51,939 bases of DNA. It comes from Dehalococcoidia bacterium. GTDB taxonomy: Bacteria; Chloroflexota; Dehalococcoidia; JAUSIH01. The position numbers were made by a program, and so were the translations under genes. The notes under the pieces are model-generated. The model did no database searches and was not told the origin of the DNA. It saw only the letters and a list, made by a program, of their open reading frames with translations. The stretch covers positions 1 through 51,939 of the forward strand of contig JAUSIH010000099.1 in NCBI GenBank assembly GCA_030648205.1, read 5' to 3'. The stretch's first letter is position 1; each line of letters begins with the position of its first letter. Positions 30,395 through 34,937 of the stretch are shown here, piece by piece.

Positions 30395-32716
30395 CTATCT
30401 ATCGTCCTCAAGGTCAGCAAAATGCCAAGCATGATGCTGAAGGTAAGGATTGTCTTTCAAAAGTTGTCCAGCATAGGCCATGTCCTCATCAGCCTCTACG
30501 TATCTGTCAAGGCGACGTAAATTGATAATTCTGGTTTTGAGCGCCATCATTAATGTCTCTGTAGGGGACGCCTTTTCTTTTTCGTCTGTAATGATCCTAG
30601 AGAATTCTCTAATTGCATCTTCTGGTCTTCCTCCTCGGCTCAAAGCAACACCGTATTGATGACGAGCGACCACATCAGAATTGTCATACTCCAGAGCTTT
30701 TTCCAAAGCATCTATGCGTCCCAGTTTGTCATATTGAGCATCGTGGATGCGCGCCAGTATCTTGTAGCAGAGTGAACCTGTTTTGTTTGTAGCACGTCTA
30801 CAAGCCTCTTGGCTGTGAACTAGCGCGAGTCCGACACGCCCTCGCGCTAGTTCGCAACTGGCGCTCATTGCAAGTATGTATGCGCTTTGTGGTGCCAAAT
30901 CGCGTGCTTGCTTGAATAACACGTCCGCGTTATCAGCGTTCCCAGCAAACATTTCTGACTCACCGCGTCTGCATAGAATGGCAGCCTTTTTCTCGTTGTC
31001 AGTGGTTAGGCCATAATATTCGAACGTGCTTCGGAATTTGGAAACTTCGGACTCTTGTAATGCCATTTGCTCGCTATATTGTTGGAGACGTTGGTGGCCG
31101 CGTGTCACAAAATCACCCAAAACGTCTAGTTGGTGACGCGCGAAGGAAAGCGTAATTGGTAATGCAGAATATACGACTCTTCCATCTGAGAGTTGAGTGA
31201 CGCGCGTTACCAAGGTGACATCCATCAATTCAGCTAGAGCCTTATCAATCCTTTCGACGTTCCATTGCGTCACTGTAGCGATCAGTTGAATAGTGGGCGG
31301 CACATCAAAGATGGTCATGATTGCGAGCATCGCCTTGGCGTCCGGTGATATGGAATGCCATATGTTTCTAAAGCTAAACTCGAGAACGGGTGAATCACTG
31401 TGCACAACAGCGGTAAGCACTTTGGCTATGTCTTTTGTGATTTTGTATTGGCCTATCATCCATTGAATTGCCAGTGGTAATCCTCCGGTGGCCCCTCGAA
31501 CTCTTGAGACAATGTCTTTGTGCAGGGGGAAGGAAACGCCCATGTCCCTTGCTTTTACTTTTAGGAACTCACCAGTCTCTTCGTCGCTCAGCTCGTTTAC
31601 TGCAATGGGCATCTCCCATCCGCCAGTCTTTTGGCGGCTGGTGATGAGAACCTTGGCTTTCGTGTTGTTTGGAAGCTCTTGCACGAACTTAAGTACCCGT
31701 CCGTCGGACACGGACTCCATATTGTCAAGAACCAAAAGAGTTTCTCCTATGCCCAGGATATCCAAGGCCAAGTGCTTCTTGGCTTCAATGTCCTGTGGCG
31801 TCTTTTCTCCGATTAGATCAATAATATGGTCTAGGAAATTTTCCAATGAGTACAGAGAGCGACCAAAAGGTTTAATGCCCTCTGGCGTGAGAATAGTTTC
31901 CTTAGCGGTGAGTTGGAGGATCGCTTCGAAGGCTCTTCGGTGATAGAACTCGTATGTCACCCAATTCACTACGGCGGATTTCCCAACCCCTCCTGGGCCA
32001 TGAACATTCACTATCCAGATACGCGGATCCCGCGTCACTGCTTCCAGAATCTGCTGTTTTAGGGCTTCCCGACCTATAAAACTATCAAAGCCCCTATCTA
32101 GAAGTCTGTAAGGGCCGTCCTGAATTGCGAATGGCGAAGGTTGTTCTGTTGCTTGAATGGCATCTTGGTCACAAGAAGCTTCTAGGTGCTCAATTAGTTC
32201 TTCCAACTCGACTTGAGATTGAACTTTGACGGTTGAATCTCCGCGTCTTATCCAGATATCGCCTCGTCGTATGCCGAATGGTGCGTTTGGGCAGTAGTCT
32301 TTGGCGACCAGTGTTGGCATACGGCGTTTGCTTCTCTTCCGACTTGACCGAACGTATATAATCGCAATGTTACCAATATCTTGAATTTCGTGATGCACAA
32401 TATCAACGTCTAACTCTACCCCTGCGCAACGACGAATTTTGTCATGCAGCATTTTCGAGTCGTACGGAAGTTTGCTAGACAGACCACATGGTATCCATGT
32501 TTTGTCCTCGACTCCCACCACGATATATCCGCCCCCCACGTTTTTGAGCGCAAGGGCGTCTTTCGTAAACGCGCACAACTCTTGGTCGTGTTCTATTCCG
32601 AGATGCTTTTTGTAATCAAGCCATTCGCACTCACCGTGGCATTCCAGAAGATATCTCAGACCATCTAAGGAGAGATCACCGTCTCGTACCATCTTTTCTA
32701 GTACGGAAAGATTCAT
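30395..32716 (-). CDS. AlbA_2 (Schlafen-like) - STAND/NB-ARC ATPase - TPR protein
   Basis: A 773-residue protein with defence-type architecture. Residues about 10-170 form an AlbA_2/Schlafen-like domain: CEWLDYKKHL, ALKNVGGGYIVVGVED and GDIWIRRGDSTV are its core motifs. An NB-ARC/STAND ATPase follows with Walker A GPGGVGKS (240-247), Walker B LLVLD (327-331), sensor ITSR (358-361) and GLPLAI (412-417). A winged-helix segment spans about 450-530 and TPR-like repeats about 570-760, the usual sensor part of such proteins. STAND NTPases oligomerise on ligand binding; many bacterial ones abort phage infection, and AlbA_2-like parts bind or cut nucleic acid. The gene is A/T-richer than its neighbours and has a strong AAAGGAGG site. 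No partner gene is adjacent. Confidence 0.9.
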   Translation of the reverse strand: MNLSVLEKMVRDGDLSLDGLRYLLECHGECEWLDYKKHLGIEHDQELCAFTKDALALKNVGGGYIVVGVEDKTWIPCGLSSKLPYDSKMLHDKIRRCAGVELDVDIVHHEIQDIGNIAIIYVRSSRKRSKRRMPTLVAKDYCPNAPFGIRRGDIWIRRGDSTVKVQSQVELEELIEHLEASCDQDAIQATEQPSPFAIQDGPYRLLDRGFDSFIGREALKQQILEAVTRDPRIWIVNVHGPGGVGKSAVVNWVTYEFYHRRAFEAILQLTAKETILTPEGIKPFGRSLYSLENFLDHIIDLIGEKTPQDIEAKKHLALDILGIGETLLVLDNMESVSDGRVLKFVQELPNNTKAKVLITSRQKTGGWEMPIAVNELSDEETGEFLKVKARDMGVSFPLHKDIVSRVRGATGGLPLAIQWMIGQYKITKDIAKVLTAVVHSDSPVLEFSFRNIWHSISPDAKAMLAIMTIFDVPPTIQLIATVTQWNVERIDKALAELMDVTLVTRVTQLSDGRVVYSALPITLSFARHQLDVLGDFVTRGHQRLQQYSEQMALQESEVSKFRSTFEYYGLTTDNEKKAAILCRRGESEMFAGNADNADVLFKQARDLAPQSAYILAMSASCELARGRVGLALVHSQEACRRATNKTGSLCYKILARIHDAQYDKLGRIDALEKALEYDNSDVVARHQYGVALSRGGRPEDAIREFSRIITDEKEKASPTETLMMALKTRIINLRRLDRYVEADEDMAYAGQLLKDNPYLQHHAWHFADLEDDR

Positions 32717-32830: not shown

Positions 32831-33757
32831 TTACCGGACAGCGAGCGTCTGCTGGATGGCCTCCTCCATCTCGTCCACGGTCACCAGTCCGCTGAGCTTG
32901 TAGCGGACTGCCCCGTTCCGGTCAATCAGGAAGACCCACGGGTCGTTCTGGATGCCCCACTCGGTCACGGTCTCCAGAGGGATGCGCTTGATGGGGTCCT
33001 TCCAGATCTCGATGTGGACGAAGTCCATCTCCCGCGCGTAGAGCGGCTGCACAGTCTGCACAATCTCGTACGCGGGGCCGCAGACGCGACTGGTGCAGAA
33101 GGCGGGCGTGGCGAAGAGGACCAGCAGGGGCCGGTGAGCGGCGACGGCGTCGGCGATGCGCACGTCGTACATGTCGCCCGGCGGTTTGGCGCTGGAGATT
33201 TCCGAGATGTCCTTCACGTCGCTGGCGATGAGGTTGCGGCTGCGCGGCGCGGGCGCGCCCACGGCGGGCGAGGTGGACGCCGCGAGCACGTCGAACTGGG
33301 TGCGCGCGACGACGAGCGGGCGGCCAGGCTGGTCAACGGTGACCTCCACGCCCCAGGGGCCGGATTTGTCGAATGTGGCCTCGGCGAGCCACAGGCCCTT
33401 CATGTCCAGATGGTGCGTCGAGAAGAGCTGGTGGGCGTGGCCGGGCATAGTCTCCAGGCCAATGGGCCTGAAATAGACAACCGTCTCGCTGCGAAGGGTG
33501 GCGCTGGCGCCATCAATCTGGAAGAACCGAGCGTGCCCGCCCCCGAACTCGATGGGCGTGCCCTTCTCGTCCAGGACCACCAGCGATATGCGGTTGGGGC
33601 CGACGACCTGCTCCGCGGAGGCCATGACCAGTTCCACGCGCGGCGGCTCCGGCGTCGGCGTCGCGGGCGGCCCTATGACGCCGCAGGCGGCGAGCAGCGC
33701 GGCGGCTCCGCACAGCGGAGCGACGACGATGAAAAGCAGGTGGCTCCGACTCGGCAT
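32831..33757 (-). CDS. Thioredoxin-fold lipoprotein
   Basis: A 308-residue exported lipoprotein. The ATG at 33757 gives a signal peptide ending in LLAAC with the lipidated Cys25; a longer frame from 33901 is unlikely. After a Pro/Thr linker comes a beta-rich domain (about 40-160) and, from about 200, a thioredoxin fold: LLVLFATPAFC, then DPWVFLIDRNG with a cis-Pro-like region. The redox site is C221-TSRV-C226, a CxxxxC instead of CxxC, as in a subgroup of extracellular thioredoxin-like proteins. It is third in the minus-strand operon after the selenocysteine DsbA-like gene and VKOR (26 nt gap), so it probably accepts or donates disulfides with them. Confidence 0.85.
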   Translation of the reverse strand: MPSRSHLLFIVVAPLCGAAALLAACGVIGPPATPTPEPPRVELVMASAEQVVGPNRISLVVLDEKGTPIEFGGGHARFFQIDGASATLRSETVVYFRPIGLETMPGHAHQLFSTHHLDMKGLWLAEATFDKSGPWGVEVTVDQPGRPLVVARTQFDVLAASTSPAVGAPAPRSRNLIASDVKDISEISSAKPPGDMYDVRIADAVAAHRPLLVLFATPAFCTSRVCGPAYEIVQTVQPLYAREMDFVHIEIWKDPIKRIPLETVTEWGIQNDPWVFLIDRNGAVRYKLSGLVTVDEMEEAIQQTLAVR

Positions 33758-33783: not shown

Positions 33784-34263
33784 TCAGACGCCCGTCGCGC
33801 TCCCGGCGCTTGCTCCCGCTGGGGGCTTCTGCGGCGCCACGGCCTCGGCCAGACTGAGCGCGAAGATGCCGGTGACCAGCAGCGCCGACGTGACGCACCA
33901 CACGCAGATGGCGCGCAGGACGAAGACCTCAACGCCGGTGAGATAGGACGAGAACAGGAAGCCTCCGCCGGACACGATGGCCAGCGCGACGGACATGGGC
34001 GCGGACAACGAGGGGAAAGCCAACACGCTCACGCTGCCCAGCAGCAGGAACGCATATGTCGCCAGCCCCAGCATGGCGATAGGCGCCCCCAGGAACCGGG
34101 CGTAGGCGCTGGTTGTGACCTGCCCGCAGCCGCCTACCGGGCCGCAGGCCGGGGCCTGGCCTATGATATAGCTGACGCTAAGGTACGTGGCGACGCCCAG
34201 GCCCGCCAGGCTAAGCGTGGCGCGACATGCCTGAAGAATGGGCCTTCGCCTTTGCTCCGTCAT
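33784..34263 (-). CDS. Vitamin K epoxide reductase family protein (VKOR)
   Basis: A 159-residue membrane protein with four or five predicted helices. It reoxidises a DsbA-like partner and passes electrons to quinone. The family residues are present: the loop pair Cys40 and Cys46 (GQAPACGPVGGCGQV), a Ser/Thr-rich turn after it, and the active-site pair ICVWC (Cys120, Cys123) on a helix near the quinone. Its ATG overlaps the stop of the DsbA-like gene (ATGA), a tight coupling that defines its partner. Bacteria lacking DsbB, such as Actinobacteria, Cyanobacteria and Chloroflexota, use VKOR for this step. Confidence 0.95.
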   Translation of the reverse strand: MTEQRRRPILQACRATLSLAGLGVATYLSVSYIIGQAPACGPVGGCGQVTTSAYARFLGAPIAMLGLATYAFLLLGSVSVLAFPSLSAPMSVALAIVSGGGFLFSSYLTGVEVFVLRAICVWCVTSALLVTGIFALSLAEAVAPQKPPAGASAGSATGV

Positions 34264-34937
34264 CGCGCCTTCCCCAGGGCCTCATCAATGGCCCGCTTAT
34301 AGGTCGGGTAGTCCGCCAGCCCTTCAATCTTCCCGCCGTTCACGAACACGGTGGGCGTGGACGCGGCTCCCTGAGAGCGGGCGACGGCTATGTCTTCGCG
34401 CACCCGGTCCACGTAACGCTTGCTGTCCAGGCAGGTCCCGAACGGCGCCGCGTCCAGGCCGATCTTCACGGCGAAGGCCTTCAGGTTCGAGTCGCTGAAG
34501 GCGCCCGCGTTCTCACCCGCCCAGTTCTGGAACAGAATGTCATGGTACTGCCAGAACTTCCCCTGGTCGGACGCGCACTCGGACGCCTCCGCCGCACGCA
34601 ACGATTCGTTCCCGATGACCGTCAGGTGCCGGTACACAAAACGCGCCTTGCCCGTGTCCACGTAGTCGCTGACAATCTGTCGCCCTGGCCCGAGGGCGAA
34701 GTCACGGCAGTACGGTCACTGGAAGTCGCTGAACTCCACCACGGTGACCGCCGCATTCGGGCTGCCCATCGAGTGGCGCGCCCCGGAGGCAGCCGCACTC
34801 TGGCCGGGAGAGGTCGCCGGGGGCTGCGCGCTCACGAGCACGATCGCCACGGCGACGGCGACTACCATGATGCCTCCGCCCATCAGAAGCCAGGGGAACG
34901 CGGAGCGCTTTGCGGACGTTTTCTGCTTGCCTGGCAT
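34260..34937 (-). CDS. DsbA-like thiol-disulfide oxidoreductase with selenocysteine (UPYC) active site
   Basis: A 225-residue membrane-anchored, externally facing oxidoreductase. Residues 15-36 form a single helix, and a Ser/Gln/Pro linker follows. The DsbA domain starts at SPNAAVTVVEFSDFQ. Codon 74 (34716-34718) is TGA, exactly where DsbA relatives have the first Cys of CPYC; PYC follows and the domain continues unbroken to the end (RFVYRHLTVIG, ASECASDQGKFWQYHD, STPTVFVNG with the cis-Pro). I read UGA as selenocysteine, so the site is U74-P-Y-C77. A stem-loop of the bacterial SECIS type follows. Conventional gene calling would split this into two fragments. It overlaps VKOR by four bases. 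The alternative, a nonsense mutation or base error, is less likely given the exact position and the hairpin. Confidence 0.85.
34680..34699 (-). promoter_or_regulatory. Candidate bacterial SECIS element
   Basis: On the mRNA strand, TCGCCC and GGGCGA form a perfect 6-bp stem around TCGGGCCA, an 8-nt loop containing GGG. The stem can be extended by C-G and T-A past one bulged base. The stem begins 16 nt after the UGA and the loop lies 22-29 nt after it, within the range of known SelB-binding hairpins such as that of E. coli fdhF. It is also part of the coding sequence. Confidence 0.65.

Follow-up and report, generated by a model that had tools for sequence, protein, structure and literature searches.

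Organization of the locus

The window, that is, the whole 51,939-nt stretch of DNA analysed, carries on its minus strand a DsbA-like gene with an in-frame TGA, adjoined by genes for a VKOR family oxidase and a probable lipoprotein. The features are listed below.

34260–34937, minus strand: Sec-DsbA gene, 225 aa, with an N-terminal membrane anchor, a thioredoxin/DsbA domain, a predicted U-P-Y-C site and a TPT cis-Pro loop
34716–34718, minus strand: in-frame TGA, predicted to be read as selenocysteine (Sec; residue 74), at the column of the first catalytic Cys
34680–34699, minus strand: SECIS-like hairpin TCGCCCT-CGGGCC-AGGGCGA, 7 bp with a 6-nt loop, assigned by position and comparison
33784–34263, minus strand: VKOR family quinone-linked oxidase, 159 aa (Pfam VKOR, 8e-21), translationally coupled through ATGA
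32831–33757, minus strand: probable lipoprotein with a thioredoxin-like C-terminal domain and CTSRVC, its function inferred from weak NCBIfam matches

The DsbA frame starts at ATG 34937, with a Shine-Dalgarno-like GAGGTG approximately 10 nt upstream, and runs to 34260 through 73 codons, the TGA at 34718–34716, a further 151 codons and the stop codon TGA at 34262–34260. The in-frame TGA lies inside VVEFSDFQ-U-PYCRDF and replaces the first Cys of CPYC, placing the predicted Sec first in the CxxC motif. The read-through product, which matches Pfam Thioredoxin_4 (6e-33) and DSBA (1e-15) above their cut-offs, keeps the second Cys, the TPT cis-proline loop and two further conserved cysteines. The preliminary description had placed the TGA at the position of the first catalytic Cys of the DsbA family, counted 151 residues from there to the normal stop and reported a four-base overlap of this stop with VKOR; the minus-strand frame and its translation, the homologue column, and the ATGA formed with the VKOR start codon (34263–34261) agree with all of this. 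Gene finders without a Sec model will break such a gene into two.

The lipoprotein gene at 32831–33757, for which no Pfam match was found, is likely the third gene of the operon. Elsewhere in the window, the minus strand at 30395–32716 encodes a protein that combines an SLFN_AlbA_2 domain with NB-ARC ATPase and TPR domains. This architecture is STAND-like, and the protein may have a role in defence or regulation.

Selenocysteine machinery of the genome

The genome assembly (2.69 Mb, 95% complete, 120 contigs) encodes the whole set of SelA, SelB, SelD and tRNA-Sec for which the preliminary description had proposed a search, its absence having been named there as grounds for rejecting a selenoprotein. 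SelA was found with an E-value of 1e-135 and SelB with 351 bits against a cut-off of 242, while SelD has its own in-frame TGA at the usual place (RCAGUAAKF). The tRNA-Sec has the anticodon UCA and scored 69 bits; a second RF01852 match above the cut-off, on contig C40, was discounted as a tRNA-Ser.

Four further DSBA-family genes are present in the same genome, and in three the active-site column has TGA. These three are FrnE-like, with the sites YLUPWC, YLUPWC and YTUPYV (L189, L190 and L192, on contigs C109, C86 and C46, respectively). At least the products of the C86 and C46 genes look cytoplasmic, judging from starts just before the active-site strand and no visible signal sequence.

Exchange of Cys and TGA at the catalytic column

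Homologues were collected within the same class (119 and 393 genomes) and from named genomes, yielding 191 distinct genes. The scan of named genomes gave only Cys homologues and has no bearing on the frequency of Sec, as one search pattern held a Cys codon. At the column of the first catalytic Cys, 129 of the 191 homologues have TGC or TGT and 62 have TGA, a count that overstates independence because, beyond the nearest clade, a single family (f21) supplies most of the TGA rows. Conservation continues past the UGA, and over 139 codons in the 191 homologues the only in-frame stops were the TGAs at this column and, in homologue L152, a single TGA in place of the second catalytic Cys. Homologues broken by TAA or TAG were partly left out by the ORF collection, and their absence inside the domain is thus less telling than that of TGA elsewhere, which the collection did not leave out. 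The occurrence of TGA at exactly this codon is, on the aligned sequences, far beyond chance. Relatives exchange Cys and TGA at precisely the proposed column, and the stops at random other codons that the preliminary description had named as counting against a selenoprotein were not found.

SelA was found in 26 of the 28 genomes bearing the TGA form; G002 and G277, in which it was not, are 54% and 72% complete, respectively. One genome with the Cys form (G049) has only marginal SelA-superfamily matches and belongs to the same family as the Sec-bearing G189, G247, G361, G365 and G373. On a quick tree with moderate support, the Sec label needs only nine changes and occurs in several clades, one of which holds the window gene, L023 and L152–L156, with two Cys rows among its members. 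This pattern agrees with published Cys/Sec exchange among thiol oxidoreductases (PMC1794560).

L152 (genome G365, minus strand, TGACCTGTCTGA) has TGA for both catalytic codons (UPVU), against UPVC in its sisters L153 and L156. Its second UGA is separated from the hairpin loop by only some 11 nt, which falls outside the range usual for SECIS elements; either the protein is a DsbA with a UxxU site or the sequence is in error.

The hairpin downstream of the TGA

The constraints on bacterial SECIS elements given in PMC13188914 are a loop of 3–9 nt, a stem of 4–16 bp, a G in the first two loop positions, a distance of 16–37 nt from the UGA and an MFE of at most −7.5. The window hairpin falls within them, with a 6-nt loop (CGGGCC) that begins 23 nt after the TGA, a 7-bp stem and −11.1 kcal/mol for the hairpin alone. 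The preliminary description had correctly started the hairpin 16 nt downstream of the TGA; the 6-bp stem and 8-nt loop it gave are better replaced by the 7 bp of TCGCCCT/AGGGCGA around the 6-nt loop. Compared with shuffles, the folding energy does not stand out in so GC-rich a sequence (z = 0.2) and was therefore not used as evidence; the support for the hairpin is positional and comparative.

A bSECIS-like hairpin was found in the expected place in 58 of 62 TGA genes versus 27 of 128 Cys genes, with 26 and 33, respectively, expected from codon shuffles (Fisher p = 7e-23 for TGA versus Cys, on rows that are not independent). The window's hairpin is retained in the six TGA relatives closest to it, and all seven pairs of T[C/T]GCCCT/AGGGC[G/A]A hold in the seven nearest TGA genes (L022, L023 and L152–L156), among which the second pair shows a compensating C-G/T-A exchange. 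Near Cys homologues show pairing in only 44% of cells, and family f21 has an 8-bp stem at a different offset, with T-A, C-G and G-C exchange.

These results bear on two other explanations of the interrupted frame. If the gene were a DsbA pseudogene, or if TGC or TGT had become TGA through an error in sequencing or assembly, a single base change would suffice, and the assembly is fragmented; however, the remaining frame is intact and conserved, the same TGA recurs in 61 other homologues and at no random place, a position-specific hairpin goes with the TGA, and the Sec machinery is complete, leaving this explanation very improbable. Sequencing error in particular is very unlikely because independent TGA relatives share the same hairpin. 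Reading of the UGA as another amino acid, whether through general reassignment (e.g., to Trp) or near-cognate read-through, is compatible with the frame taken alone; yet TGA also terminates genes here, including those for DsbA and VKOR, the column is a catalytic Cys and not Trp in all 129 others, machinery for UGA-directed Sec is present, and the hairpin tracks the UGA rather than the gene. We give this explanation even less credence than the first.

The intact frame, the Sec machinery, the TGA column, the hairpin and the co-occurrence with SelA therefore argue that the gene encodes a selenoprotein. The apparently broken gene is, judged from the DNA, intact and specifies a secreted disulfide-bond enzyme that very probably uses UGA-encoded Sec in place of a key sulfur. 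What the preliminary description had read as a split DsbA gene encoding a selenoprotein thus appears to be a real one, supported by the sel genes, the exchange at the catalytic column and the lack of random stops.

Proposed role of the Sec-DsbA and VKOR pair

Only one VKOR and one Thioredoxin_4 protein were found in the genome, both at this locus. VKOR adjoins the window gene and L023, L152–L156, L052, L168 and L169, and in the window's own clade it is always adjacent, in Sec and Cys versions alike. The AlphaFold model has a pLDDT of about 97 over the domain and shows a thioredoxin fold with an inserted helical domain, as in DsbA and BdbD.

Considering these results, we hold it highly likely that the locus encodes an exported, membrane-anchored thiol oxidoreductase of the DsbA/BdbD type with a catalytic Sec, probably re-oxidised by VKOR. 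We infer Sec incorporation, export, the direction of catalysis and the VKOR partnership from what can be read in the genomes, namely the intact frame, the position of the TGA, the Sec machinery, the Cys/Sec exchange, the conserved hairpin, the predicted DsbA fold and the coupling to VKOR. The hairpin that closely follows the UGA would guide SelB and tRNA-Sec in inserting Sec there. Once oxidised, the enzyme would have a selenenylsulfide between Sec74 and Cys77 outside the membrane, which may oxidise exported proteins or exchange their disulfides. VKOR, the product of the adjoining, translationally coupled gene, would then probably re-oxidise the reduced enzyme and pass electrons to quinone.

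Selenenylsulfides are as a rule weaker oxidants than disulfides, and the redox potential is usually lower with Sec; the enzyme might thus act as an isomerase or a reductase. That the selenoprotein acts mainly as a reductase, an isomerase or a peroxide- or metal-handling thiol enzyme, rather than as a VKOR-fed envelope oxidase, would suit the low redox potential to which selenenylsulfides tend, the naming of the curated relative NF041057 as thioredoxin-like and not DsbA, and the f21 Sec-DsbA genes, which lack VKOR in the stretches read and indicate that VKOR is not obligatory for the Sec-DsbA family. This role is nevertheless rather unlikely, given the constant adjacency of VKOR in the window's own clade and that the best solved relatives are the DsbA and BdbD oxidases.

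In the f21 genomes (L053–L058, L178 and L181–L184), as many as four genes for DsbA-like lipoproteins follow one another in an operon. Every one has a separate UGA at the first catalytic Cys (UPSC, UGGC, UGNC and UPNC), and almost every one a separate SECIS-like hairpin. No VKOR was found near these tandem operons in the stretches read.

For the oxidase reading, a wider consequence falls a little short of probable: the one Thioredoxin_4-type DsbA that this organism exports, served by its one VKOR, may be a selenoenzyme, in which case general envelope disulfide formation would be selenium-dependent and VKOR would oxidise a selenol/thiol pair and not a dithiol. The gene would place Sec in a VKOR-coupled disulfide pathway, in a lineage rich in such genes. 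As an oxidant, the selenenylsulfide should be fast but weaker in thermodynamic terms, and the pair makes it possible to test directly the reason for Sec in a thiol oxidase.

Comparison with known systems

The nearest solved structures, by sequence and by fold, are Bacillus subtilis BdbD and Corynebacterium diphtheriae DsbA/TsdA (3eu3, 4pwo and 7unn), which share the fold (rmsd 1.7–1.8 over about 174 columns) and whose CxxC column coincides with the predicted UxxC; they have Cys where the window protein would have Sec, at 26–28% identity. The best curated match is NCBIfam NF041057 (153.5 bits, E 7e-45, full-domain alignment), the Rcas_1661 family thioredoxin-like (seleno)lipoprotein, named after what we take to be a Roseiflexus locus tag. 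This family admits Sec or Cys. The window protein, whose membrane anchor shows no obvious lipobox, scores below the curated cut-off of 190 bits, which may be narrow because other Sec homologues also score 105–150. Bacterial pairs of VKOR, replacing DsbB, with DsbA- or Trx-like proteins share the coupling of the two genes; they differ in that the VKOR partner here would carry Sec.

DsbA-like and DsbG-like UxxC selenoproteins were listed in 2006 (PMC1794560), found as UxxC and UxxV forms of DsbA in marine metagenomes in 2008 (PMC2398784), reported from 41 organisms in 2016 (PMC5029168) and retained in current catalogues (PMC9312934; PMC13188914). According to excerpts of these five sources, they are an established family, predicted bioinformatically in many bacteria. 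No link between Chloroflexi and DsbA occurs in these excerpts, and in the literature collection searched no paper joining VKOR, DsbA and Chloroflexi was found. The published proteins (PF01323 and PF13462), as excerpted, have the same fold family, Sec for the first Cys of CxxC and abundant Cys homologues; a VKOR operon, or the sole Thioredoxin_4 protein of a genome, is not described in those excerpts. Since such proteins have been known since 2006 and NF041057 is already a (seleno)lipoprotein family, the window gene adds a well-supported member to a known type and does not represent a new phenomenon. What a specialist might not expect is the coupling to VKOR, the arrangement of Sec-DsbA genes in tandem operons and the UxxU site.
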